This document shows, piece by piece, positions 6,242 through 58,053 of a DNA stretch of 64,000 nt. The notes below the pieces were generated by a model, which was given only the letters and a program-made list of their open reading frames with translations, searched no databases and was not told the DNA's origin. Origin of the DNA: Mycoplasmoidaceae bacterium (GTDB taxonomy: Bacteria; Bacillota_I; Bacilli_A; Mycoplasmatales; Mycoplasmoidaceae); NCBI GenBank assembly GCA_024407855.1, contig JAKSVQ010000001.1, forward strand, positions 62,001 to 126,000, written 5' to 3'. Both the position numbers and the translations under genes were made by a program. Numbering within the stretch: position 1 is the stretch's first letter; each line of letters opens with the position of its first letter.

Positions 6242-6268
6242 AAAAAAAAGAGCTTATGCTCTTTTTTT
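6242..6268. terminator. Terminator of the pyr operon
   Basis: Stem AAAAGAGC/GCTCTTTT with loop TTAT, flanked by A- and T-runs. It overlaps the stop codon of pyrB (6254-6256). Confidence 0.8.
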
Positions 6269-7372
6269 GTTCTTAGGATTCTTTCTTAAATCTACTTCCA
6301 TTTCACAGTAAACACATTTTCATATACCTTTTTTACTTGTTGGCACAAAAATATGTTTATGACCTTGTTCTATACTAGAGATACATCTAGGGTTTTTACA
6401 AACTAAATCATATCTAGCTTTAGTACCATCATAGTAGTAATCACGTTTAGCTTTTTGTTTAGCTCATTCTAGTAATTGTAGGATAAGAGCCATTCTGATG
6501 TATTTACCATTAAGTGTTTGTCTAAAGTATGCAGCTCTTGGATCTTTATCAACCGCCACTTCGATTTCATTCACTCTTGGTAGTGGGTGAAGAATAGCCA
6601 TGTCTTTCTTTGCTTCTTTTAATTTGTCGACAGTTAAAACATAGCAATCTTTTAATCTTTCATATTCTTTAGGGTCAAAGAATCGTTCTCTTTGAATTCT
6701 TGTCATATAAAGGATATCTAGATCTTTCAAGTTACCTTCTAGCGTTCTAACTTCTTTGTATGGCATTTTGTTTTTCTTAATAATGTCATGGATAACGTGA
6801 GATGGCATTTTTAGTTCATCTGGAGAAATTAAAACAAGTTTAATTCCTTTGTATCTTGACATAGCCATTGTTAGTGAGTGAACAGTTCTTCCATATTTAA
6901 GGTCACCACACATACCAATAGTTAAATTGTTTAATCTTCCTTTTTCACGATAGATGGTTAAAAGGTCGGTTAGTGTTTGAGTTGGGTGACAGTGAACACC
7001 ATCACCAGCATTAATTAATGGAATGTCTGTTGCAAATGAACCAGATAGTGCTGAACCATCCTTTGGATGACGCATTGCAATAATGTCAGCAAAGTTGCTT
7101 ACTGTTTTGCAAGTATCAGCAACACTTTCACCTTTAGCAACACTTGATGAAGATGCATCACTAAAACCAATTACTGTTCCACCAAGTTCTAGCATAGCTG
7201 ATGTGAAACTTAATCTAGTTCTTGTTGAAGGTTCATAGAATAATGTTGCAATTTTCTTTCCTTCACAAACATGCGCATATTGTTCTTTGTGATTAATAAT
7301 GTGGATAGCACTTTTTATTAAGTCATCAATTTCTTTTACCGTTAAATCTTTAATATCAATTAAACTTCTCAT
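6254..7372 (-). CDS. pyrB: Aspartate carbamoyltransferase with a C-terminal PyrI-like zinc motif
   Basis: It condenses carbamoyl phosphate and aspartate, the first committed step of UMP synthesis. Residues 1-302 are a full catalytic chain: STRTR at 49-53, [23 protein letters not shown] (Trp 303) leads into a 70-residue extension with Cys at 325, 330, 353 and 356 in the pattern CKNPRC…CVYC, like the zinc domain of the regulatory subunit PyrI. The nucleotide-binding half of PyrI is absent. The zinc module may help trimer packing without allosteric control. Last gene of the pyr operon, 2 bases after pyrE; its ribosome site lies inside the end of pyrE. Confidence 0.95.
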
Positions 7373-29138: not shown

Positions 29139-30665
29139 ATGAAACCGATTATTGAAATTGTTAAAAAATACGGCCTAAAGGCCAAAGACATTTTTCCGTT
29201 TGGAAATTATGTTGCAAAACTAAATGTGGATAATTTACCTGAAAAAGGAAAAGGCAAATTAATTTTAGTTACAGCAACAAGTCCAACTAGTAGTGGAGAA
29301 GGAAAAACAACTATTAGTATTAACTTAACTGACGCATTAAACAAGATTGGCAAAAATGCAATTGTTGCACTTCGTGAACCATCTGTTGGACCAGTATTTG
29401 GAGTTAAAGGTGGAGCAACTGGTGCAGGGAAAGCAAGTATTGTTCCAGAAGATAAAATTAACTTGCATTTTACTGGAGATATTCATGCAATCTCTTGTGC
29501 AAACAACTTAATTGCAGCTGTTATTGATAATGAAATCTATCAAAAGAGCGAATTAAGAATTGACCCAAATAAAATTGTTCATACAAGAGTTATGGACATG
29601 AATGATCGATCTTTACGATCAATTAAAGTTGATATTGATTCACAAACATCATACCATACAAGATTTGATATTACATCTGCTTGTGAATTAATGACAATTT
29701 TCTGTTTAGCTAAGGATAAAGATGACTTTAGAAAACGTTTAGATAACATTTTGGTTGCTTACTCATTAGAAGGCAAACCAGTATATGTAAAAGATTTAAA
29801 AATTTCTAAAGCAATCATGAGCATCATGGAAGATTGCTTTAAACCAAATATTGTTCAAACATTAGAAGGAAATATGGCATTTGTTTCAGGTGGACCATTT
29901 GCTAATATTTCTATTGGTGTTTCAACAAATATTGCTACGCAAGCTGGATTAAAATTAGCTGATTATTTAATTACTGAAGCTGGATTTGGCTCTGATTTAG
30001 GTGCAGAAAAATTTATGAATGTTTTATGTCATGAAAACGGTTTAAAACCATCATGTATTGTGTTGGTGTCAACAATCAAATCTGTTATCGAACAAGGACA
30101 AGGCAATTTTGAAAAGGGATTAAAGAATCTAGAAATTCATATTAATCACTTAAAACAATACAAAATACCTTTAGTGGTAGCAATTAATCAATTTGCTAAT
30201 GATACACAACGTGACATGGCCAAATTAACTAAGTTCTTAATTAGTAAAGAAGTTAACTATTGCTTTGACACAGGGTTTGTTGATGGCGGCAAAGGTGGAG
30301 TTAACTTAGCTAAGAAAGTTGTTGAGTTAGCTAAAAGTCCAAAAGAACCAAACTTCTTATATGATCCTAAACAAGATCTTCAAACAAAGATTGAATCTAT
30401 TGTTACTAAGTGCTACAATATCAGAATAATAAATTATTCTGATAAGGCAAAGGAATTACTTGCTAAATATAAAGATAACGGTTTCTATGTTTGTATTAGT
30501 AAAAAACCAGGAAGCATTGCAACAAACTATATTGATGGTAAACCAGCGGTTGTTGTTAATGATATCTTATTAAATACTGGAAGCAAATTAGCTGTTGTTC
30601 TATGCGATAAAGTATTTAGAATGCCAGGATTACCTAAAGTTCCAAGGGCAAAAACCTGAAAATAA
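29139..30665 (+). CDS. fhs: Formate-tetrahydrofolate ligase
   Basis: It makes 10-formyl-THF from formate, THF and ATP, which mycoplasmas need for fMet-tRNA. The 508-aa protein has the P-loop PTSSGEGKTT (49-58), REPSVGPVFGVKGGATG, the segment NLHFTGDIHAI and EAGFGSDLGAEKF. It is about 50 residues shorter than most homologues (around 555). The protein runs through a TGA to end …AKTWK. TATAAT ends 8 bases before the ATG and no ribosome site is visible. An ECF S component (50958-51875) and a DHFR-like protein (58053-58553) in this window may supply the folate. Confidence 0.95.
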
Positions 30666-30694
30666 ATAAAAGAGACCATATGGTCTCTTTTATT
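30665..30694. terminator. Terminator after fhs
   Basis: A 30-bp perfect palindrome centred on ATAT: stem AAAAGAGACC/GGTCTCTTTT, followed by T-rich sequence. Confidence 0.8.
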
Positions 30695-30763
30695 TAATTC
30701 CAATAATAATTATTCATTTTTTAAATTAAGTAATATAAAATATTTATATTACTCATATTAACT

Positions 30764-32704
30764 ATGGAGATAGTTTTTAAGTACGCGAGACTAAAAAATA
30801 AAGAATTACAAAGAGCTGAACCAACGTTTCAAGCTATTTTTAATGTTATCCATAGTCAAGGTGATAGAATTTTTGCCGAATACATAGACATGTTTGAAGT
30901 AAAAACTGTTTCTTATAAACAGATGAAAGAATATGTTTATAGGATGGCAACATATTTGGCAAGTCAAATCAAACTGCCAAAAGAATCTTTTGTTGGTATG
31001 TATATGGAAAACTCAGTAGACTGAGTTGCAGTATTCTGAGCACTGCTAATAATTGGTTATAAACCACTATTGTTAAATTGTAAATTACCAGATGATATAA
31101 ACAATCAAATTTTAAAAACAATGCAAACTAACATTGTGATAACTAACAAAAGTCATTCAAACATTGAAACACAATGATTAGATTTACCAAATAGTGAAGA
31201 AATTAATAAACTAGAAATATTTAAAAATGAATCGTGAGCAAATCAAATAGCTATTTGTACAACAGCTAGTACATTAAACTATAAGATCTGTGTTTACAAT
31301 GGCGCCAACATGCAACAGCAACTAATTAATGCCGAAGATATTATTGGTTCTTGTCCACGAATTAAAAAACACTACAAACATCGTTTAAAACTATTAGCAT
31401 TTTTGCCATTCTATCATATCTTTGGTTTTGTTGCCACATACATGTGGTTTTGTGTATTTGGAAGAACTATTGTCTTTTTGAATAACTATAGTGCTGACAC
31501 AATCTTATACACAATTAGAAGATGTGAAGTTACACACATTTTCTCTGTGCCATTATTTTGAAACACTATAGCTCAAGGAATAAATAAACAAATTCAAAGA
31601 CAACCAGCTAAGAGACAAAGAAAATTTGTTAAAGCGCAAAAATTTGGATTAGCCATTCAAAACATTTTCCCTAATTTAGGTACCAAGATAGCCCGTAAAA
31701 TGTTTAAAGAAATTGTAATTAACACTTTAGGCGAAACAATTCAATGTTTAATATCTGGTGGTGGATACATACCAGATTCGACACTATATCTATTCAATTC
31801 AATTGGTTATCCATTATTTAATGGTTATGGAACAACAGAAGTAGGAATTATTTGTCTTGAAACAAGAAGTAGACCAAAATATCGTATTCAAGGATTTGTT
31901 GGTAAACCACTTAAATCAGTTCAAGTTAAAATTGAAAATAATCAATTACATGTATCTGGTAAATCAACATGTGAATATTTGATTAACAAAGATGGAACAA
32001 AACAAATATTGAATGGAAATGTTTTTAATACAAATGACATTGCTACACTTGATCAAGATAACAATTTATTTATTCAAGGACGTAATGATGATGTGATCAT
32101 TGGAGCAAATGGTGAAAAGATTAATCCTGATTTAATTGAAAAAGAATTGTCGTTTAATTACATTAACAGATATGTTGTTACTGAGATTGAACATAAAGTA
32201 TCGCTTGTTATTCAAATACCAATCAGAACTAATGTTTTGGTGTTGAAGCAAATATGTGATGAATTAAAAACAAACATTGATTCATTGAAAGCAAAAGGAT
32301 TTAATTTAGAAACAATATATTTTACATATGAATCAATTGCACCAGATAATGCAATTAAAGTTAGTCGAAAGATATTCCACAAATTGCTTGCTGACAAACA
32401 AGTTGTATTACACAACTATAACGAATTATCTAACTTATTAGCTAAACCAGAAAATGAAACATTGGATAATATTACTAAAGTTATCAGAAATATTTTTGCT
32501 CAATCATTAAACAGAAATGAAAATGAAATAGGAATTAATCAACACTTCTTTTTAGAATTGGGCGGAACAAGTTTAGATTATTGTACTTGTTACACAAGAA
32601 TTCAAGATGAATTTAATATTTCATTAGAATTAAATAATAAAAAATGCGTAACGGTGACTGATTTTGTCGCACTTATTAGCAAATGGAGGAGGGAACATGA
32701 ATAA
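30764..32704 (+). CDS. AMP-dependent ligase fused to a carrier protein domain
   Basis: The 646-aa protein has an acyl-activating (ANL) ligase domain at about 20-530 with FNGYGTTEVG, a TND in place of TGD, and GRNDDVIIGANGEKINP. A C-terminal carrier domain follows, with LGGTSLDYC in which Ser 603 should carry phosphopantetheine. The nucleotide loop, normally TSGTTGxPKG, reads CTTASTLNYKI here, so ATP use may be impaired. It probably loads an acid onto its own carrier, or has become a scaffold. Eight or more TGA codons encode Trp. It is the first gene of a six-gene cluster and overlaps the transporter gene by 8 bases. Confidence 0.8.
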
Positions 32705-34646
32705 AGGTAAATTTAAAACTTTAAATAAACCTTGAAAAGAAATTCTATTCTCTGCTTCAGGTTTTGGTCCTAACTTATTAATGGTATTGTTAGGAGCATA
32801 TTTATCTAATGCTGTTAACCCAGCTGCATTAGAGTCAAGCGGATCGCCAGGATGACAATATCAAACAATTAGTGGTATTTGTCTAATATTGCCACTACTA
32901 TTCTCAATCTTATGAACAGTAGCAAAATGTTTTGATGGATTAATTGATGTTCCATTTGCGGCATTGACTGATGGTTTAAGAACTAAATATGGTAACCGTA
33001 GAATACCAATTATTATTTGTTTCATACCTATGGTTGTAGCATTTGCTATGTGTTGATATCCATTATTCAATCATGCCGATTTGAATATTGGTGAACAAGT
33101 GGGTAATACAATTTGATTATTTGCTTGAGCACTTATTTTCTTTGCAACCTACACATTAAGCTTGATTGCTTTCTATGGAAGTCTTTCGACAGTTTGTTAT
33201 GATGAAAAGCAAAGAACAAGAGTATCAAGTTATAAATCGTTCTTTGATACTATTTCATATGCTTTAGTTTATGCATTAGTGCCTGTCATACTATCTAATG
33301 CTCAACTTCATATTGATAAGTTAGCATTCTTTGCATTGCCACTAATGTTGACAATGATTATTCCTCTATTCATTATTAAAGAAGGAGAAAGATGAGAAGC
33401 TAAAGCCATTGCTCAAGGTTATGATATTAAACCATTAGCTACACAAAAGCCTGTTAAATTTGGTGAAAGTATTAAATTAACATTTAAAAACAAGGCATTC
33501 TTAAAATGATTGTTGGTAAATGGATTTGCATTCTTTGGTCTGCAACTATTCTTAGTATCGATGAATGCATTGATTATTGGTGGAATGGGATTAAATGGAA
33601 CCAATATGACCATTTTAAATACATTTGCATTTGGCCCAGTGCCAATCATGTTGTATTTATTTAACCGAATAAAAGAGAGAAAAGGTATTAGATTTGCTTT
33701 CCAAGCTAGCTTGTTATCATTTTCTATTGCCATTTTAGCATTCTTCTTTGGTAGTAGATTTGTTTGAGGTGAAGAGGCAATAATGCAAAAAATGATTATT
33801 GGTGTTTTCGGTAGTATTCTAGGATCATATGGTATTGGTTCGTTCTTTATGATGTCATATTTAGTGCCATCACAAATTGCTTCAGTTGAGGAAAAACTAA
33901 TAAAGAAGAACCATGCATCAATGTATTTTGCTAGTCAAGCTGTCACAACATCAGTAATTGGTGCCGTATCAAGTGGGTTGTTCTGAGAAAATATTAAAAA
34001 CCTTTGATTTTCTAAAGCTGTTATGGGTGTTGTTAATGCAGAAACAATTCAAGCAGCAGCGCAAAGCCTTGGTGTGGCAGAAGCATCAGTATTTAATTTA
34101 GGTGTGTTCTTAGTACCAATTATTACCAGTGCATTCTGTATGGGCGGTTTCTGTTTTGCATTCTTGATGCCAAAACAATATACTGCAGAACTTGTTTACA
34201 AGCAATTTAATCTTAACAAGAGATATGAGGTTGTAAAACCTAGTAAGATTAAACAAAGAATTCAATACCCATTTGATGCAGCATCAATAGCTGTTTACAA
34301 TGCTCTTTGAGTTCTATCTGCAACTATCTTTGGCTTTGCATGATTTATAAGTATTATGAATGATATCAACACTTTTGTAACTAAGAAGCATAACAAATGG
34401 TGAATATTGCTAGTATTGTTTGTATTCCCATTTGGTGCATGTTTAGCATATCGATTAAATAAAGATATAGACACCGAATGTAAGAAATTAAAGATTAAGA
34501 CTAAGTCTTATGCACCACTAATCATAATCTTTAGTTGTCTATATTTAAATTGTGTAAGTTTATCAATCATGCAATATAAGTTAAATAGAATTGCTAGAGT
34601 ACAACACGCAATGATTCGTAAGACTAAAGGAGCTAAATATGAATAA
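32697..34646 (+). CDS. GPH/MFS_2 family transporter (MelB/MFSD2-like)
   Basis: The 649-aa protein has about 12 helices. The cytoplasmic loop signature KCFDGLIDVPFAALTDGLRTKYGNRR (about 79-104) marks the GPH (melibiose carrier-like) family, the same family as the vertebrate lysophosphatidylcholine carrier MFSD2A. The last 110 residues add two extra helices (ALWVLSATIFGFAWFISIM…). Between two lipid-type ligase genes and two acyltransferase genes, a lysolipid or fatty-acid substrate is more likely than a sugar. It overlaps its upstream neighbour by 8 bases and its downstream one by 8. Confidence 0.78.
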
Positions 34647-35292
34647 ATTGTTCCTTGGTTTTGTAAAAATTACTGGTCTTCCAATTCAATATGCTAATTT
34701 CCGTAAAAAAGTATATTACGAAGGTGGAGATAAATCATTAAGAAAAATTAAAGGACCAGCTTTAATTATTTCTAATCACACATCAGTTTATGATTGTGCA
34801 TTGTTAATTTATACATTCTTTAATCGCACAATTAGAACATTAGCAGGTGAACAATTATATAAATATAAAATGCTTGCTAGATTGCTAGATAAAACTGGTG
34901 GAATAAAAGTAGATCGAAATAACTTTGATTTTAGTTTCTTAAATACTATGTCTTATTGTTTAAGAAAAGGACAAGTATGTTTAATTTTCCCAGAATCGAG
35001 ATTGCATACTGATAAAGATCCACAAGGATTACTTGAGTTTAAACCAAGCTATGTTTATTTGGCCTTACAAAATAATGTACCAATTATCCCGGTTTATACC
35101 AATGGAATGTATGGTAAAAAACGCCGTCAAAATAAAGAAAGAGCAAGAATCATCATTGGCAAGCCAATTATCCCTACTTTATTGCTAAATAAAGAATTTA
35201 GTGAAAAACAAAATATTCTTTATATTAATAACTATGTAAGAGATAAGATCGAAGCCTTACATAAGGAACTTGATGATCAAACAAAGAAATAA
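34639..35292 (+). CDS. PlsC-type glycerophospholipid acyltransferase (first)
   Basis: The 217-aa protein has the acyltransferase HX4D motif as NHTSVYD (His 47, Asp 52), GGIKVDRNN, and the phosphate-binding motif FPESRL. It is normal in length for PlsC but has no clear membrane helix, and no TGA codon. It should acylate lysophosphatidate or another lysolipid using acyl-ACP. It overlaps the transporter gene by 8 bases and lies 2 bases before a second acyltransferase gene. Confidence 0.85.
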   Translation: MNKLFLGFVKITGLPIQYANFRKKVYYEGGDKSLRKIKGPALIISNHTSVYDCALLIYTFFNRTIRTLAGEQLYKYKMLARLLDKTGGIKVDRNNFDFSFLNTMSYCLRKGQVCLIFPESRLHTDKDPQGLLEFKPSYVYLALQNNVPIIPVYTNGMYGKKRRQNKERARIIIGKPIIPTLLLNKEFSEKQNILYINNYVRDKIEALHKELDDQTKK

Positions 35293-35294
35293 TT

Positions 35295-35966
35295 ATGAAG
35301 AAGCGATCTAAATTTACTCAAATATTTGATCCAAAGATGTGACTATATGACTTTGTGAAAATAACTGGTGGTTGACCAGCAGTCTTAGATCAAAGAGTCA
35401 AAAAAATATTTTTAGATGATAAGAATCACAAAGGTTGATACCGTGGAAGATTTATAGTAGTTGCAAATCATCGATCTTACATGGACCCACTTATATTAAC
35501 AAACTTATTTTGAAAAAGAAGAATATTGTTTATTGCAACAAAGGAAATCTTTAAGAAGAAGTTTGCAAATAGATTCTTTAATCGTGTTGGATTAATTAAA
35601 ATTGATCGAGATAATGTTGCTGTTGAAACATTTAAGAAAGCGAAAGAAGTATTAGATCGCGGACATATTGTTGGAATCTTTCCTGAATCTCATGTTCAAA
35701 ATCAAGATGAGATAAGAAAATTTGCTCCAGGAACGGTAATGATGTCAGTTATTTGCGATGCACCAATCCTTCCTATATATATAGCAGGACGGAAAAAACG
35801 GAAGAACCGGCAAGTAATTATTATTGGAAATAGAATTGATTATAAACAATATACTGATGGCAAATTTCCAACAATGCAACAAATAAATCAAATAACGGAA
35901 ATTATTCAGCAGGAAGAAATAAAATTGAAAGAAAAATATGATTTATGAATAAAGGATAAAAAATAG
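35295..35966 (+). CDS. PlsC-type glycerophospholipid acyltransferase (second)
   Basis: The 223-aa protein has NHRSYMDP (HX4D, about residues 59-66), VGLIKIDRDN, and FPESHVQN where most enzymes have FPEGTR. It shares only the motif skeleton with the preceding acyltransferase, so they are diverged paralogues, possibly specific for different glycerol positions. Eight TGA-encoded Trp make it fragmentary in the standard code; the start is the ATG 2 bases after the previous stop. It ends 1 base before the next gene. Confidence 0.83.
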
Positions 35967-35967
35967 T

Positions 35968-37464
35968 ATGACAAATACATCATTAAAAGAAAAAATGTTA
36001 AACCACCCAATAGTTAAAGGTTTGGTTAACATTACTAATGTAACACAATTATTACATCACATTAAAAAACAATATGGTAAAGATGAAGCAGTAATCAAAA
36101 CTGATGGAACAAAGAAAACGTTCAATGATTTATACAATGATGTTTTGATTGTTGCCAACAATTTAAAAAAATATCAAGGCAACATTGGTTTATTTGCTCC
36201 AAATGGTTATGAATTTGAAGTTATTGCTTTAGCAACTATGGCAACTGGAAAGATGGTTGTGTGTTTACCAGCACAATTAAATAAGGATCAATTATTTGGT
36301 TGTTGCCATAAATTTGATATCACAGTGTTGTGCTATGACACAAAATTAATGGCTGCATCAACTGTAAATGTTAATAAAGTTGACATCGCCTCATTATTTG
36401 AAGATCATGGCCACGATGATATTCTTGTTAAAGATATTAATGATAAAGCACCTGCATGTTTATTATTAACTGGTGGAACAACTGGTGCACCTAAAGGTGT
36501 GGTATTAAGCCATACAGCCATTATGCGAGGCATGATGAATGGATGTTATGGATTAGACATAGTATACAAACAAAGATATTACTGCATGATACCATTAACA
36601 CACTCATTTGGTTTCATTCGTAACATGTTAACGGCTTTATATACAGGTAGTGTTATCTATTACAACCAAGATAAGATGGCAATGTTTAAAGAACTTGCAA
36701 CATTTAAACCAACTGTTTTAATCATTGTTCCAGCTATTGCTGAACTATTCCTAAGTTTAGTTCAATCAAGAGGCCATGGGGTTCTTGGTGGACAAGTTCA
36801 TACTATTATTTGTGGATCAGCTAATGTTCCACAACACTTATCATTAGAATTTTGAAAACAAAAAATTGGTTTCCACCCAGGCTATGGATTAACTGAATTA
36901 GCTAATATGGTTACAGGAAATGTAGAACCAACTAAGTTTCCACAATCAGTTGGACAATTATTCCCAGAACAAGAAACTAAGATTGTTGAAGGCGAACTTT
37001 GAATTAAAGGTCGTAACCTTATGAATGGATACTATAAAGATCCAATTGCTAATCAAGAAGCATTTAGAGATGGATGATTTAAAACTGGTGATTTAGTTAA
37101 ATTTGATGAATATGGTAACCTATATATAGTAGGAAGAATTAAAGACCTTATTATCTTAGATAATGGTGAAAAGGTTTCACCGGCATACCTAGAAGCTAAA
37201 GTATTGAAGATTGATTTAGTTAAAGATGCTTTAGTTTATGGTGAAAAAAACAAGAATGGTGTTATCAACTTAATTCTTGAAGTGACTATAAGAGATGGGT
37301 TTGCACAAAAACTAAATATTAAAGATGTACAAGCATATATGGAAAAAGAAGTTGATAAGATCAATGATGAAGTCTTGGTTTATGAAAGAATTAGTAAAGT
37401 TATAATCCGAAAAGAAGACTTTGCAAGATCTCCAGCAATGAAAATCTTGAGAAAGAAACAATAA
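35968..37464 (+). CDS. Acyl-ACP/acyl-CoA synthetase-like AMP-dependent ligase
   Basis: The 498-aa ANL enzyme has an intact nucleotide loop LTGGTTGAPKG, GYGLTELANM, WFKTGDL and GRIKDLIILDNGEKVSP, so unlike the fused ligase upstream it looks fully active. It probably activates fatty acids and loads them on the ACP encoded 1 base downstream. Mycoplasmas cannot make fatty acids and must activate imported ones, usually through FakAB; this would be an extra route. The two PlsC-type enzymes just upstream would use the product. Confidence 0.85.
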
Positions 37465-37465
37465 T

Positions 37466-37717
37466 ATGATCGATAAAAATAATATTTTGCAAAGATTAAA
37501 AAAGATCCTAAAGGATGCATTACCAAAACAAGTAAATTTGTCTAAAGTAGAACTAACCGATCGACTTGTTGAGGACCTAGGATTTAATTCCGTGGCAATG
37601 GTTTATATGGCTTTTGCCATTGAAAAAGAGTTTAGTGTCGACATTTCAGATTTATCGTTTGCATCATTTAAAACAATAAATGATGTAATAAATTACATTG
37701 TAAAACACACTAAATAA
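37466..37717 (+). CDS. acpP: Acyl carrier protein
   Basis: The 83-aa four-helix carrier has the attachment site LGFNSVAM with Ser 42, where the usual DSL is NSV. It follows the acyl-ACP synthetase-like gene by 1 base and closes the cluster. It needs phosphopantetheine from a holo-ACP synthase; an Sfp-type enzyme is encoded at 38961-39500. Confidence 0.88.
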   Translation: MIDKNNILQRLKKILKDALPKQVNLSKVELTDRLVEDLGFNSVAMVYMAFAIEKEFSVDISDLSFASFKTINDVINYIVKHTK

Positions 37718-37746: not shown

Positions 37747-38046
37747 ATGAAAAATCAAGTTACAAAAACTAAAGATAGAAAAGCTAAACTTTCTACAGTT
37801 GGCTATATCTTAGGAATTGTTGCAATTGCTACCTCATTAATCCTTGCAGGTGGTGTTGTTGGAATTCCTGGCATTGTTTTCAGTGCCATTGGTATGAAAT
37901 CATCTAATCAAGAAGCTGCTAGCAAAGCAAAGATTGGTTTAATCTTATCAATCATTGGTGTTGCTATCGCTATGATTCTAGGATTTGTTGGAGGATACTT
38001 CTTATTGAAGTTTATCTTTGAAAACGGAGGACATCCAATTGGATAG
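37747..38046 (+). CDS. DUF4190-like small membrane protein
   Basis: The 99-aa protein has two helices (about 15-46 and 65-92) around a short loop IGMKSSNQEAASKAKIGLILSIIG, the layout of DUF4190-like proteins. The function is unknown. A TATAAGGAGATA ribosome site precedes the ATG, and a lipoprotein gene starts 9 bases after its stop, so the two are one unit. Confidence 0.7.
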   Translation: MKNQVTKTKDRKAKLSTVGYILGIVAIATSLILAGGVVGIPGIVFSAIGMKSSNQEAASKAKIGLILSIIGVAIAMILGFVGGYFLLKFIFENGGHPIG

Positions 38047-38055
38047 GAGACAATT

Positions 38056-38952
38056 ATGAAATTAAGAACAAAATTAATACCATTATTTACTGCAGCTAGT
38101 GCTGCTGCTGTAATTGCACCACTAACTTTAACAAGCTGTGGTGATTGAATAAGATATACAGATTTATTACATAAAAGATATGATTCATGAGTAAGACCTC
38201 ATGATGAAGTAACTGTTTTGGGCGGACAAGCTATAACACGATTGTATACAAATGACACAATGCAAAATACAAATATATTAAGAGATGATATTCTTTGATC
38301 TAACTCAACATTGCTTAATATAGAAGAACCACACAGTGCTATTAATGAAATAATTAAATATAAAGAATTTAATTTAGATGTATTCTTTTCAAAGAAGAAA
38401 GTATTTGATGCATATGAATCATACGATGCTTATTGTGCTGAATTTGAATCACATGTTGTTGGACAAGTTATAAATGAATCACAAGTTGATCCAGCCAATG
38501 AGTATTTAGTTGATGATGGAAAAGCAATTGATGAATTTGATTTTTATTTTGATGTAACAATCTATGGTTTAACTAACATATCTGTCGAAGCAATTTCTCC
38601 ATCTCTTCTTTCTGATTTACCAAATATGAACATAATTACTGTAAAATTTAATGATTCTTCAACAATTGTTGACACCACAGTAAGCGGTAGATATACTCTT
38701 AAGGGTACAAATGAAGAAAAGACAATTGAAAATAAGAGAGAGATTCTTAACGACGCTAGCAAAGATAAAATTAAAAATACATTATATTCATGATTTGGAG
38801 CAACAACATTAGCTCTTCTTACATTTGCCACAAATGGTGGCGAGTATTCTAAACAACAAAATGCTAGTGATTCATATGGTGCACCTGAATTTTCTTTCAT
38901 TAGTCATTATTTAAAAAATGTTAAGTATACACAAAATACAAATCAAAAATAG
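38056..38952 (+). CDS. Hypothetical lipoprotein
   Basis: The 298-aa protein has a signal peptide MKLRTKLIPLFTAASAAAV… ending in LTSC (Cys 28). The signal is nearly the same as that of the lipoprotein at 62335-63297 (MKLKTKLIPLASLAV…), so they belong to one secretory or gene family. The mature part is hydrophilic, rich in Asp, Glu, Asn and Tyr, with no recognised domain. Four TGA codons encode Trp. It ends at a shared terminator. Confidence 0.82.
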
Positions 38953-38970
38953 GCATTAGCCTATTTTTTT
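38947..38970. terminator. Bidirectional terminator
   Basis: AAATAGGC/GCCTATTT with loop ATTA, then a T-run; covers the stop codons of both convergent genes. Confidence 0.8.
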
Positions 38971-39500
38971 TGTACTGTAGAAACAAAATATATATTGTGA
39001 TTATCTTTAATTTGTTTTGTTTCAACTGAGCCTTCGACATCTTGTTGAAGGTTTTTTAAATTAATTGCATCACCATTTAATTTAATATAAGCTTCATGTT
39101 GAGTTCAATATTTAGTAAACCATATTTCTCGATCTTTAGCTTTAAAGTAATTATTTAATTGTTTTTCATTTAATAAACGTTGAGCTAAAGAACGACAAAT
39201 AGTTAATGGTAATAATGTTTCAATATCAATACCAATAGGTTTATTACTAACAGCAATTGCTATTTTATTTAAACTATGAGATAAACTGAAATATACATTT
39301 TTGTCTAATGAATATGGTTTACCATTTTCATTAAACTTAACTTTAGTTAAATCAATATATTTACCTAAAGTATCTCAAGCAAAAATGCTTGAGTTTTTTG
39401 CTTTTTCATCCTTATATAAATTACAATGCTTTAAAATACTGCTTGGTAAGTTATATGGACTAAGCTTTTTAGGAATGTCTAATACTTTAACAATTTTCAT
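38961..39500 (-). CDS. Sfp-type 4'-phosphopantetheinyl transferase
   Basis: The 179-aa protein has the three Sfp motifs: NGKPY with FSLSHS (about 59-76), PIGIDIET (88-95, the metal-binding Asp-x-Glu) and FTKYWTQHEAYIKLNG (128-143). The usual WxxKE reads WTQHE, so the Lys is replaced by His while the Glu stays. It should transfer phosphopantetheine from CoA to carrier proteins, such as the ACP and the fused carrier domain encoded 1-8 kb upstream. Its ATG overlaps the previous stop by 1 base (TAATG). Last gene of the tilS operon. Confidence 0.82.
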
Positions 39501-41531: not shown

Positions 41532-42542
41532 CTACCAAGCTCCAAAATAAATCATTTCTTGTGGTTTTCTCACATAGTCACTAAATTTGTTATCTTGATA
41601 TCTAGCAACTAATGATTGTTTATTTCATCCAGCACCAATCATTCTAAAGACTTCTCCGGGCCCAAATGAGAACAATGTGTGTCAGATTTTGTATTTTCTA
41701 ACTTTATCAATAAGTAAATGGTTAATTAATATGAATAAAATTCCAATGCTTCCCCAAATTAATGAAGTAATAAATGACACTTGATACCCAAATTGTGAAT
41801 CTCTTAAAGGTTCAAGAGAGGCTCTAAAGAAACCATATCAAATGAAATATGCACCGGCTAGGTCTCCAGCCTTTCTTTGTCGTATAAATTCAATTCCAAA
41901 GTAAAGAATAAAGAACATAGAAAGGTTACCAATGCCTTCTCAAAAGAATAATGGTTGTCTTCATTCTCCATTAATAAACATACCAGGTAAAACCTTATAC
42001 AGGAATCAAGCAAGGTTTTCATTTGTTACAATGTTTCCATATACTTCTTGGTTGCAATAATTACCTCAACGACCAATAAATTGACCTATTAGTATAGCAG
42101 GAACAATTGCATCAAAGTACATTCACATACTAACACGCTTAACTTGTTTGTCACCAAACACATCTTTAACTCGATATTGGGAAATTCGTAAGATAAGTGG
42201 AAAATAAATAAAAGCCGCAAGGACAGTTAACATAACACCTCACTCAATAGCGAGTCCTTGACCAAAATTATGGAAGAAATCTCCTCATGGGGTTTGTCCA
42301 ATAGCACAAGATCCAAATCTCGCACCAAAAATAGCTGTTGGGACACCCATTAAAATAAATCAATAAAATGGTTCAGTAGACACTTTATATCTTTTTCATA
42401 ATTTTAAACAACCTAAAACAATAGCAACAGCGAATCCAATGATGATGCAAACAGGATATCATCATGAAGATTGAGTATCGGGATTTAATCAAGGTTTTTG
42501 TCAACCTGGATCTGGTGGCATATCGCCAAATAATGTAAACAT
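41532..42542 (-). CDS. lgt: Prolipoprotein diacylglyceryl transferase
   Basis: It attaches diacylglycerol to lipobox cysteines, so it acts on the many lipoproteins of this window. The 336-aa protein has about seven helices, the segment GQGLAIEWGVML, and the signature QFIGRWGNYCNQEVYG. Twenty or so TGA codons encode Trp, so the gene is nearly invisible in the standard code. Its ATG overlaps the hprK stop (TAATG). Confidence 0.93.
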
Positions 42543-51942: not shown

Positions 51943-54900
51943 ATGAAGGCAAAATCTAAATTATTTTTATTACCTATAGGTGCCACAGTCATAGCTGGTG
52001 GTGCGGCGTGCACTGCTATATCTTGTGCACCAAAAGAAGAAACTAAATTTGAAGTTAAATGACTTGCGACAGATGCAAAGCAAACAACAGTATCGAATGT
52101 TAACGCAATCTTAGGAAAAGAATTTAAGACTCAAATTAGTATTAAAGATACATCCGAACTTAAGATTGACATAATTTTAAATTACAATACACCTGAAAAA
52201 CAAGAATGACTTAGTGAGGGTGTTGACTTTGCCTGAGAACCAACACCAGATGTTTCAGGATCGTATGATTTAACAATTTGGGCTCATGCTGTTAAAACAA
52301 CAGATATAACTTTGCTATTAACTATTGATACAGAACTTGTAGTCGACACAGAATGTCAAGAATCTGATTTTGATGACGAAATAATGCTTACTAATCCATT
52401 GGCTCGTCAAGAGAGTGATTTTGAAACTGATATTGTTGTCACAACGCCATGACGAATATTAAACTTAACACCAGCATTATATGTTAATGGTAGAAAAATT
52501 GATCCAGTGACAGATGGCACAACTAATTGGGAATGAACTAAGGATACTGAAACAAAATCGCATTTAAAAGTGTATAGTCATGTCATAACAACCGCCACTA
52601 AAAGTATGAAGGTTGGAGCAATATTAGAAGATAAAGCTAACCAATTAACAATCTCTGGTGGTTCTCCTTCATTGAGCGGATATACTGATTTTAAGGGCTC
52701 AGACAACAAAAACTGAATACCAACTTTTAGAGAAAAACAAATTAAATCAACAGATGTTGAATGATCAATAAAAAAGAAAACAAATGATGGAGATATTGAA
52801 ATTTCTATTGATAAAAATGGTTTAGTTTCATGAGATGCAACACAAGTTCATGGTCAACTTAGTGTTCAATTTGATGTTGAAGCTAAATATACATTACCAG
52901 GGACAACACATATCTTCACTGCTGCACCCCAAACAGTTGAATTAAATTTGAATACAACGTCATTTGAATTTACAACTAAAGATAAGACCGAGCTTGAAGG
53001 AACAGAAGGTATAAATAAATCTGACGTTCTTACAACGACAACAAAAATAAATGAAAGTGATCCATCTACATGAGGTTTAAATGTAGAATATTCACTTAAA
53101 GAAACGGGTAGTACAACTGCTGATGATTTAAAGCATTTTGAATTTAACAACCAAAAATTAAGCTGAAAGAGTTCAATTGTTGAAAAAACTTACACTTTTA
53201 AAATTGTTGCAAAATGTGAAAACAAACCTGCTTCTCAAACATATAAAGCAGAAATATCAGTCACTGTAGCAATTAAACCAGCAAAAATAACTATTTCAGG
53301 CGGTACTACAAAACTTGACGGTGGCAAAGAAGGTAGCAGTGGAAAAGATAATAATCCTTGACAAATTAAATTTAATGATAAAAGTGTAGACGATACTATC
53401 GGTTGATCTATAACTTCATGTACTCCGTTACCAAAACCTGATGGTTTGGATATTGATGATGATGATGGTTGTGTTTATTGAGACGAAACAATACCAAATA
53501 CTACTACGAAATTTAAAGTTAAAGGAGCATGATATTCTAGTATTACTGGTAAAGATTATTCTATCGAATCAGATGAGATAACTTTAACATTCACCGCAAG
53601 AGAATTTACTGTTTCTGGTAATCAATATCTTACAGGAATTGAAGGGCAAGACGGAACAGGTGGAAACTTTACTGCAAGACTTGATGGTGAGGATGTTACT
53701 AGTGAAGCAACATGATCAATAGCTTGATTTGGCCATGAAGAAGAAACACCTTCATGGATTTCGATTGATAAAGGTGTTATTTCTTGAGATGGTTGTGTAA
53801 CTTTTGAAGACCAGTCTAAGTACATATTTGTTGTTAAAGCAACATTAGAAAAACCATGAAAAACATATGTTTGAGATTCTTCATCAGCCGAAGGATGCGG
53901 CCCAATTACTTTTAATTTAACAAAGGCAACTCTAACATGTGAGGGTGGATCAACTGAAATAGTCGACACATATGAAGGTCAAGAATATAGAGATAATAAA
54001 CAATGAATTTGTAAATTGAATGGGGAAGATCAAGTTCAACCAAGTGAATACATAATTGAAAGTGAATATCCACTTTATACATCATTTGTAAGAATATCTG
54101 AAGATGGACATCTTTACTGAGATGTAAATACATCTTTTGGAACTGGATCATCGCAAGACATAACAATTAAAGCAAAATACCATGATGATAGATTACAAAA
54201 GGATATTGTTAGTGACTCAACTAATATTCATATCGATATTCAATATTATGAAAAATTAATTAAGCTTAACGACAAAGTTGAAGACATTATCTTCAACACA
54301 ATTGAAGGTGATGGTGGAGAGTCAGACGGATGCTTTAAGCTATTTGTTGGCGGTCAGGAAACAACAGTAAATTCATGAGAAGTTAAAGAAGTTGAACCTA
54401 AAAGCATGGAAGGCAAAATAACAATAGAAAACCAAAAAGGTGAAAATTTTGGTAAATTATCTTGAAGCAATAACATTCCAGTATTGCAACAACATGACCA
54501 ACATATTGCATTTAGAATTTATGCCTACTATAACTTACCATGAATGGAAGGCGAACAAAATGTTCAATCAAAAATTGTTCAACTTTATATCAATCCCCTA
54601 ATATTTAACTTAGAAGCTTCATCAGAACAATATACCTTTAATGCAAATGAAGGCTTTGCTGGAAATACAAAGGATAAGTTGATCTTTAATACTACATTTG
54701 GAGTTGAAGGCCAACAAGTTGATGTTACTGATAAAACAACATTTACTATTGTAGATGGTGGTGATACTCCTGCTGAAGTTTTAAGCAAAATACATTTCAA
54801 TAAAGAAACTGGTGCAATCGAATGAGACGATAGTATTAAACATGGAACATACAAAATTAAATTACAAGCAGAAATTGAAAAAGAAGGTTTAGAACATGAA

Positions 54901-57012
54901 TTTAAGAAAACCTCAGAAACCATTACTTTAAACCTAAGAGAAAATCACATAGGTTTTAAATATGCTGAAGGCGGAAATAAAGATTCATGTAATGAATTTA
55001 CAGCCCATGACTGAAAAAACAATTTCCAAATATGTTGAACTGGAGAAGACGCTCCAACAACAACCTTTGAAAGTAATATCACATTTAGTGGCACTACCCC
55101 TGCAGGTATCCAATTTAAGCGTGAAGGTGATGACACAGTTCGTCCATATATTGGAACAAACGTTCATTCTGATAAGTACGAATTTACAATGAAGGCATCA
55201 TATACATTGCCATCAATAGGTACAACATATGAGGCTGAAATTGATATGGAATTGGAAGTTTTTAAAAAGAACATTACAATTAGTGGTGGAAGTGAAGCAT
55301 TAACCGGTAATGAATGAGACGGTGGTGAGGATGACACACCATGAGTTGTTAAATTCAAAAAAGTTGGTGATGAAGATGTTGTCGTTACTGATGACTGTAC
55401 ATTTGAATTGGTTAAAAAGTCAGATAACATCCCGAATGGCGCTATATATTATGACAATGGCGACCATAAGACAAAGTGAAAAAACACAATGCAAGCAGGA
55501 GAATATAAGTTTGCATTCAAGGTTAAATATACATATAGCGGTCAAGATTATGAACTTGAAACTCATGTTGTTACATTAACACTTAATAAAATTGACTTCA
55601 CTATGAGTGAAGGTGTTAACAAAATTGAAACAACAGAATGAACTGAAGGCTCTGCTAGTAAGGCGTTCAAGGTTGTTTTGGGTGGAGCAGTACAACAAGA
55701 CGTAACAGATAACGCAACATGATCAATTGTTGCTGATGAAAGTATTAAAAACAAATTATCAGTTAATAAGGGACTTGTATCGTGAAATGGTGAAGTGTCT
55801 AGCGACTTAAATAATAAACAATTCCAAGTTAAGGCAGAATATGAAAAGACAAGCACAAACACTAAATATAGTGCAACTTCCCCTATGATTACAATTAGTG
55901 TAAATAATGCCACATTTAGTATTACTGGTGGACAAGTTGACATGATTGGTAAGGAAGAGGAGCCTGGACAAGCAAGTAGTGCTTGAACTGGCAAATTAAA
56001 TCCTGGTGCAATTGTTGAAGGTGATGAGTTATCTTATGAAATTGTTGACTGCACTCCACTACCTGAAGGCGCAGAAATTACTGTTTCTGAAGATGGTCTA
56101 GTTAAATGAAATGAAAAAATGAAATTAACTCAACAAGGACACCCAATTACATTCAAAGTTAAAGCTACTTTGAAAAAACAAGGTAGAACGAACCCATATA
56201 CATATACAACTGACACTCTTTCATTAACAATTAATAAATCATCTCGTCAATTATTTGACGAAATGGAGTGATCAGAATTGATTTCTACTCTTCATGGTGG
56301 TGGCGGTCTTGCTACATTAAAACAAAAATTAACAATGACTGAAGACCAATCAACAGTCGGATTTACTAAGAAGGTAACACTAACTATGGGTGCAGACGAT
56401 GTAGTTGAACACACAGTTAGGGTTGTTGCTGAAAACCACGATGAAAAGTCAGATGAAACCGGAGCAGCCGCACTAACATTTGAATTTGTTAATGTTATTA
56501 CACACGCTGACGGAAGCGCAGAAACATATTGAATGTTCCCACAACCAGTCTCAGAAGAAAATGGTTTCATGGACACATGAGCTACATCAAGTTTAAGAAG
56601 TTATTTGAAAAACGTTTTCATGACATATTTGCCTGAGACAATTTCTAATGGTATTGTATCAGTTAAAAAAGAATATGCTGAATATGAAGGTGGAGAATAC
56701 GCAGGTAATGTTGATGATAAAATATGGATTATGTCAGCTACAGAAGCGGGAGTTGCAGGCTCTTCTGAAGGTGCATTCATGAAAGAAGGAACTGTATATG
56801 ATTACTATAGCAGCGGCGATGCAGGGCTTCGTATTAAGTCAACAATTGATGGCAATCCAATTAATATATGAACAAGATCAGCAGAGTTAGGAGAATGAAG
56901 AACTAAGAGAAATTGATTTGGTATTGGAACGAGCGGTGATATATTTGATCTATACGCAATAAGCGAGGAAAAATTAATTGTATTGGCATTTGCTCCTTGC
57001 TTCTGTATCTAA
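51943..57012 (+). CDS. Large surface lipoprotein with Ig-like modules and DUF6273-like C-terminus
   Basis: The 1689-aa protein has a signal ending in AISC (Cys 28). Residues about 220-1430 form about 11 modules of roughly 105 residues, each built like FxISGG…G…W…V…ATWSI…I…G.VSWD…FKVKA.Y…ITLTI, an Ig-like/BIG pattern with Trp at fixed places. The end (about 1520-1689) matches DUF6273: WATSSLRSYLKNVF, a DKIWIMSATEAG block, WTRSAELGE, and terminal FAPCFCI. It should reach far from the cell and bind a host or matrix target. More than 40 TGA codons encode Trp. Transcribed alone, with AAGAGG before the ATG. Confidence 0.87.
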
Positions 57013-57282: not shown

Positions 57283-58053
57283 ATGATTAAGAAAATATTC
57301 AAATCAATTGGATATGGATTGTCAGTGCCATTTGTTGGCTTAGCCCTAATATTTAGTGCCTTATTAGCAAAAAGAAAAGCGAGAAAGTATAAAAAAGATC
57401 CTAATAGTGTTTTTCTTGCTGATCGATTAAAACACGTTTACAAAATATTCAACAAGTTCTTATATATCAAACGAGTTGAGGTAGTGGCAGAAGGATTTGA
57501 TTCCTTGCCAACAAAGCAAATGCTATTCATTGCTAACCATAAGAGTATTCTAGACCCAATGGTTGTTTTTAAGGTTTTATATGAAAGTGGCAAGATGGGA
57601 CAAATCTCATTTATATCTAAATGAGAACTAGGACAAAAATGACACACACGATGCGTTATTGAATTAATGGATGGTATTTTCATTAAACGTGATGATGGAA
57701 GAAGTATTCTTAATTGTTATTTAAAGCAAATGGAAAATGTTAAGAAAGGTTTTTCAATCTTAGTTTTCCCTGAAGGAACTAGAGTTTATGGTGATGAATT
57801 TAAAGAATTCCAACCAACAACACTAAAAGTTGCTTTTGAAAACTATATAGCAATTGCACCAATGTCAATATATGGCGCTGATAAGAAAAGAAAAGCTGGT
57901 AACACAAAGAAAGTTTATATAACAGCATTAAAACCTGTTCAACCAAACAACTTCATTACAACTAGACCAGAACCATTAATGGGCTCTTTACAAGCAAACA
58001 TTGTTGAAAAATATAATGAGCTTAAAGTAAAAGCACAAGAAAAGAGTAAATAA
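57283..58053 (+). CDS. plsC: 1-acyl-sn-glycerol-3-phosphate acyltransferase
   Basis: The 256-aa protein has one N-terminal helix (about 9-30), NHKSILDP (HX4D), and the canonical FPEGTR, so it is the housekeeping PlsC that makes phosphatidate. It differs from the two acyltransferases at 34639-35966 in having both the membrane anchor and the standard motif. Two TGA codons encode Trp. The stop overlaps the start of folA by 1 base. Confidence 0.92.

Follow-up and report, generated by a model that had tools for sequence, protein, structure and literature searches.

A recurrent six-gene cluster of a Mycoplasmoidaceae bacterium, a candidate operon for glycerophospholipid re-acylation

Introduction

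Which genes take up and re-acylate lysolipids in bacteria that have no LplT-Aas system? Genes for the uptake, recycling and re-acylation of damaged lipids are little known outside Gram-negative bacteria: in extracts from PMC11416262, LplT-Aas is reported from Gram-negatives only, and streptococci take up and acylate lysolipid without a known transporter. The question is raised by six genes at positions 30764 to 37717 of a 64,000-nucleotide stretch of DNA from a Mycoplasmoidaceae bacterium (assembly GCA_024407855.1, contig JAKSVQ010000001.1, positions 62,001 to 126,000; "the window" here means that whole stretch). An earlier note on this DNA had read them as a split LplT/Aas-like system. We put it at somewhat better than an even chance that the cluster is an accessory, ATP-driven glycerophospholipid re-acylation operon, similar to LplT-Aas and served by a non-homologous transporter. 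The directly observed features behind this proposal are the gene content, the catalytic residues, the recurrent linkage, gene fusions and, in relatives, the near absence of type II fatty acid synthesis (FASII) with PlsX, PlsY and DegV-family proteins kept. The operon would then be a short, clonable and testable candidate for the missing Gram-positive genes of lysolipid uptake and re-acylation.

Gene content of the cluster

Domain assignment with Pfam and NCBIfam, with the start of the transporter gene set at 32697 by its ATG, confirmed the six genes as the earlier note had named them:

30764..32704, + strand: LIGCAR, acyl-type adenylating enzyme fused to a carrier domain, 646 amino acids (PF00501 and PF00550)
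32697..34646, + strand: MFS, GPH/MFS_2 transporter with a C-terminal membrane extension of about 150 residues (PF13347, E 2.9e-22)
34639..35292, + strand: PLSC1, PlsC-type acyltransferase (PF01553, E 1.2e-19)
35295..35966, + strand: PLSC2, PlsC-type acyltransferase, paralogue of PLSC1 (PF01553, E 4e-24)
35968..37464, + strand: LIG, intact fatty-acyl-type AMP ligase (PF00501, E 2.9e-47)
37466..37717, + strand: ACP, stand-alone acyl carrier protein (PF00550, E 2.5e-9)

In Pfam terms the order is AMP-binding plus PP-binding, MFS_2, Acyltransferase, Acyltransferase, AMP-binding plus AMP-binding_C_3, and PP-binding. The organism reads TGA as tryptophan (27 TGA against 3 TGG tryptophan codons across the six genes), and all six are intact and open under translation table 4. 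Consecutive genes are separated by -8, -8, +2, +1 and +1 bases; the junctions of 1 to 2 bases described earlier are therefore right for the gaps, but both overlaps are 8 bases long.

Recurrence in other bacteria

The grouping is more than chance: dozens of further genomes contain the same genes. The neighborhood search that the earlier note had proposed was run as a homologue search plus a scan of genome contigs and gave 79 loci, whose open reading frames (ORFs) were searched with profiles. The gene order ligase-carrier, transporter, PlsC1, PlsC2, ligase, ACP recurs in many of them. We called a transporter long if it scored at least 750 bits (61 of 79 loci) and a locus untruncated if it extended at least 2.3 kb upstream and at least 6.5 kb downstream of the transporter start (39 of the long-type loci); to be counted, a partner had to lie on the transporter's strand between -3.5 and +9 kb and exceed a set score. 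Near the long transporter in the 39 untruncated loci are PLSC1 (38 loci), PLSC2 (36), LIGCAR (35), ACP (29), an LRAT-domain protein (28), a phosphopantetheinyl transferase (28), LIG (23) and an alpha/beta hydrolase (9). The 18 non-long transporters mostly lack partners; the exceptions are L037 (five to six partners beside a transporter ORF that is split in two), L073 (a pair of PlsC genes), L077 and L079 (each with ligase-carrier and PlsC1) and L067 (an alpha/beta hydrolase and nothing else).

Gene fusions in relatives link the components of the operon. Ligase-carrier, PlsC and PlsC are joined in L060, PlsC and ligase in L021 (the order of E. coli Aas), transporter and PlsC in L003, and PlsC and PlsC in L057, each fusion being found in one metagenome-assembled locus. 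The flanks vary, with other families recurring in few loci and at variable distance. Ten of these were identified: an ABC ATPase, a leucine-rich repeat protein, a beta-galactosidase-like enzyme, a purine-type permease, TatD, a short-chain dehydrogenase, a helix-turn-helix protein, HSP90, a vitamin-uptake transporter and one without a family; some two dozen others recur in 3 or 4 loci.

We dismissed a system confined to mollicutes, since the majority of loci are titled Clostridia or Bacilli. In the transporter tree, the window protein groups with P0001-P0003 and P0005-P0007 amid Bacilli and Clostridia loci, and P0001 is 82% identical to it. Occurrence is sporadic: a long transporter is present in 3 genomes of one sample of 200 and in 5 of another of 43, and a sample of 395 from the class of G006 contained just these 5.

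The wider search also returned groups of a different kind. Eight loci (L059, L062, L063, L064, L066, L067, L068 and L069) come from Oscillospiraceae/Clostridia and have shorter GPH transporters that group as one clade and lack PlsC and ligase partners; one protein family directly follows the transporter, a TetR-type regulator where tested (L066). Divergent relatives of the transporter in Lokiarchaeota/Promethearchaeum, Izemoplasmatales and a Firmicutes bin (L072, L074, L076 and L078) likewise adjoin one protein family, an amidohydrolase where tested (L074). In an Acholeplasma sp. (L073:10022-13277), a divergent transporter is followed by two PlsC genes, with no ligase found, possibly a minimal form. 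Arrays of 3 to 6 small same-family proteins follow the cluster in L046, L051, L025, L031, L040 and L071; those of L046 have an N-terminal zinc-ribbon-like cysteine pattern and hydrophobic parts.

Acyl activation and transfer

Both adenylating enzymes best match acyl- and aryl-acid ligases (MenE/FadD/4CL-like). LIG matches the synthetase domain of E. coli Aas with 127 bits, and its motifs (P-loop Gly170, Gly173 and Lys176, TGD and Gly-Arg) are present in 34/34 homologues, the C-terminal lysine in 33 of them. For LIGCAR (AlphaFold2 model, pLDDT 86.2), whose closest solved relatives are MenE, the carrier serine, Glu359, Asp425, Gly-Arg and catalytic Lys532 are conserved in 51/51 homologues, and the phosphopantetheine serine of ACP is conserved in 38/38.

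The two acyltransferases keep the His and Asp of the HX4D motif throughout (PLSC1, 56/56 homologues; PLSC2, 49/49). They share 28.6% identity, and neither is as close to a further PlsC-like protein encoded at 57283-58053 of the window, whose presence marks the operon pair as extra. Among E. coli proteins, PlsC is matched with 45 bits by PLSC1 and 48 by PLSC2, and the transferase domain of Aas with 34 and 51 bits, respectively.

Ligase-carrier architecture together with an Sfp-type transferase also recalls the loading of nonribosomal peptide synthetase-like systems. On this reading the cluster might produce and secrete an acylated lipid of an uncommon type, or a metabolite resembling one; the adenylation-carrier fusion would do the loading, and the transporter would export or flip the product. 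Adenylation-peptidyl carrier protein (A-PCP) didomains are among the fold matches, and homologue P0166 is named a nonribosomal peptide synthetase in one database record. The acyl/aryl-acid ligase matches point the other way, no condensation domain or tailoring enzyme occurs among the recurrent families identified, and GPH members are mostly symporters, that is, importers. On balance we consider such biosynthesis and export rather improbable.

The transporter

The transporter passes the cut-off of PF13347, and its best PDB fold matches are MelB and MFSD2A; its match to TIGR00792 (gph) is weak, far below cut-off. Its profile found MelB (19.3 bits) in a set of seven proteins, in which LplT was unmatched at E<10; LplT is also absent from the VIA list for the transporter, and a PDB sequence search with the profile gave no match up to E 10. 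The C-terminal extension matches no Pfam family. The same extension (window 34200-34646) also matches short separate ORFs in genomes G173, G259, G227 and G270.

The MelB cation site is retained. D55, D59 and T121 correspond to D80, D84 and T153 in the window and are conserved as D in 59/59, D in 58/59 and T in 58/59 homologues. The earlier note had singled out the MelB sugar-binding residues as a feature that would refute its reading. From the list of galactoside-binding residues in extracts from PMC8329300, K18, D19, D124, W128 and R149 are all replaced in 59/59 homologues (K18 by P in 57 and A in 2; D19 by N in 59; D124 by L in 51, M in 7 and V in 1; W128 by Y in 59; R149 by S in 47 and A in 12).

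These replacements bear on the simplest alternative, an ordinary sugar symporter that happens to lie beside lipid genes. GPH/MFS_2 membership and MelB as best fold match favor it, as do the beta-galactosidase-like genes that 5 loci carry at a distance of 2-3 genes. The loss of five sugar residues led us to reject a plain sugar symporter despite the retained Tyr120 of MelB and these neighbors, and PlsC1 adjoins the transporter in 38/39 loci and is fused to it in L003; a sugar substrate is thus barely credible.

An LRAT-domain partner in relatives

Most relatives carry a protein with an LRAT domain (PF04970) after ACP. That of L006 (E 1.8e-20) has as nearest PDB chains PLAAT3 and HRASLS2, which are phospholipase A/acyltransferases (E about 6e-6 to 9e-6). 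Like PLAAT/HRASLS proteins, it has an NCEHF motif and the permuted NlpC/P60 active site of His, polar residue and Cys: His24 and Cys104 (NCEHF) are present in 17/17 aligned sequences and Gln36 in 16/17. It differs in that this Gln replaces the second His of PLAAT3 and in its frequent fusion to a phosphopantetheinyl transferase (30/79 loci). According to extracts from PMC7387801, phospholipid remodeling is a well-established function of the LRAT-like group in vertebrates; the operon places a PLAAT-like domain inside a bacterial lipid operon.

The PLAAT-like partner also bears on the closest rival explanation, in which the transporter imports glycerophosphocholine (GPC) or a similar water-soluble diester and the PlsC pair acylates it twice, via lysolipid to diacyl lipid. 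GPH transporters usually carry water-soluble substrates, and two rounds of acylation suit a cluster in which acyltransferases (paralogues), ligases and carriers all come in pairs. It would be unusual, however, for PlsC-type enzymes to use a diester that has no acyl chain, and no glycerophosphodiester-specific gene was recognized beside the cluster. The PLAAT-like partners (28/39 loci) and alpha/beta hydrolases (9/39) suggest acylated substrates instead. A precedent exists in mitis streptococci, which acylate scavenged GPC twice and scavenge lysophosphatidylcholine, the transporters and acyltransferases being unidentified in extracts from PMC6805115. As in the proposed re-acylation, host metabolites are there scavenged and acylated by a pathway whose uptake genes were not identified; the difference is that no such cluster has been tied to the streptococcal pathway. 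We regard double acylation of a diester as unlikely.

Fatty acid physiology of carrier genomes

We searched 36 genomes, hand-picked from the 79 loci and all with the transporter and a PlsC gene; in L011, L013, L017 and L071, LIGCAR is lacking or truncated. DegV/FakB-family proteins were found in 35, PlsX in 33 and PlsY in 32, FabH in 3 (one weak) and FabF (Ketoacyl-synt_C) in 1, inside a 769-residue frame. For comparison, 200 sampled genomes of one host order (apparently the same order for both genes) gave FabF in 53 and FabH in 58; Fisher's test of carriers against this order gave p = 9e-4 for FabF and 7e-3 for FabH, a comparison across orders and uncorrected for kinship. Because FabF and FabH are rare and PlsX, PlsY and the DegV family are kept, the carriers seem to be fatty acid auxotrophs with the standard incorporation route. 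They are mainly rumen and gut bacteria and appear to rely on outside fatty acids. Replacement of the main phospholipid pathway was rejected for the relatives, most of the 36 genomes having kept both PlsX and PlsY; the operon seems rather to be an additional acyl route beside the standard one.

Proposed function and relation to known systems

In the re-acylation operon that we favor, LIG would activate fatty acids with ATP, and LIGCAR probably likewise. The acyl chains would pass to carriers of the operon's own, ACP and the LIGCAR carrier domain, both primed by an Sfp-type phosphopantetheinyl transferase. A cation-coupled GPH transporter would deliver lysophospholipid to the inner leaflet, where the two PlsC paralogues could transfer acyl chains to lyso- or deacylated glycerophospholipid. 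In most relatives the PLAAT-like enzyme would make or use lysolipid by deacylation or transacylation. The earlier LplT/Aas-like interpretation is supported in part: gene content, linkage, fusions and catalytic residues are observed, and we infer the substrate, the direction of transport and the pairing of ligases with acyltransferases.

Like LplT-Aas, the operon combines a transporter, a PlsC-type acyltransferase and an acyl-carrier ligase, and the PlsC and acyl-ACP synthetase domains of Aas, separate genes here, are fused in Aas order in L021. It differs in its GPH/MFS_2 transporter, whose profile finds MelB and not LplT (in a small test set), in its six or more separate genes with two PlsC enzymes, two ligases and carriers of its own, and in the PLAAT-like partner of relatives. 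A search of open-licence PMC text by theme, with none by gene name, found no description of such a cluster, which does not show its absence from print.

Several observations weigh against this proposal. The P-loop of LIGCAR is changed in the window lineage (Gly168 gives way to Ala in 11/51 homologues and to Asn in 4 more, and only 13 of 51 retain the glycine that follows), so LIGCAR activity is uncertain in the window; the enzyme may nevertheless remain active. No LRAT gene was found in the window by profile search. LIG is missing from 16/39 and LRAT from 11/39 untruncated loci, and L009 has a long transporter and zero partners. FASII loss is already common in the one order used for comparison, where three quarters of the genomes lack FabF (53/200 have it). 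The earlier note had allied the transporter with MFSD2A; GPH/MFS_2 membership and the shared fold stand, but the transporter shares 12% identity with MFSD2A and resembles its fold no more than that of MelB, other MFS proteins score nearly as high, and the columns of the MFSD2A lipid-tail pocket align poorly. Tyr120 of MelB is conserved in 59/59 homologues, the helix I alignment to MelB is gapped directly after D19, and the beta-galactosidase-like family is the sole sugar hint among the identified flanks. The conserved Tyr120, these neighbors and the high fold scores of unrelated MFS proteins did not change our odds.

A more specific version, which we offer tentatively and think doubtful, is a bacterial Lands-type cycle that remodels scavenged host or dietary phospholipids in gut bacteria without fatty acid synthesis. 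The PLAAT-like enzyme would remove or move acyl chains, the ligases would recharge the dedicated carriers with ATP, the two PlsC paralogues would put chains back at both positions, and lysolipid would be supplied by an MFS_2 symporter akin to MFSD2A and MelB. According to extracts from PMC10404611, a deacylation and reacylation cycle reorganizing phospholipid species is without evidence in bacteria.

Flanking genes in the window

The features next to the six genes are as follows:

30663..30696, + strand: hairpin upstream of the unit, 15 pairs (-18.9 kcal/mol, z -8.35)
37747..38046, + strand: DUF4190-like small membrane protein (PF13828, below cut-off)
38056..38952, + strand: predicted lipoprotein (by eye), lineage-specific end of the unit (ORF; 2 homologues only)
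38945..38968, no strand assigned: bidirectional terminator-like hairpin at the unit end (z -3.52)
38961..39500, - strand: Sfp-type 4'-phosphopantetheinyl transferase, just beyond the unit (PF01648)

Gaps of 29 bases from ACP to the DUF4190-like gene and 9 bases from there to the lipoprotein gene suggest that the transcription unit may extend past ACP through both. Weak matches to the DUF4190-like protein (21-31 bits) lie next to the cluster in L002, L007 and L008. The window transferase scores 185.7 bits to a profile built from the operon enzymes of relatives plus the window protein itself.

The lipoprotein gene raises one further use of the machinery, the recycling of the lyso-lipid that remains when lipoproteins are N-acylated from phospholipid, a role that LplT-Aas has after Lnt. 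A predicted lipoprotein closes the unit, Lgt is encoded at 41532-42542, and, according to extracts from PMC7387801, S. aureus LnsA belongs to the NlpC/P60 enzymes and has LRAT-like proteins among its best matches. The same source, however, gives a predicted signal peptide for LnsA, whereas none was seen by eye for the LRAT domain of relatives, which is moreover fused to the phosphopantetheinyl transferase in the 30 loci noted above. This recycling would be one use of the proposed re-acylation operon and not a different machine, and we judge it very unlikely.

Elsewhere in the window, an aspartate carbamoyltransferase fused to a PyrI-type metal-binding domain (6254-7372, - strand) belongs to a pyrimidine gene cluster that runs to 11559, and an F420 gamma-glutamyl ligase-like protein (PF01996; 2052-3248, - strand) is encoded in this TGA = Trp bacterium. 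The protein encoded at 51943-57012, perhaps a surface protein, is 1689 residues long and contains a DUF6273 domain; 41 of its codons have a reading other than that of table 11.

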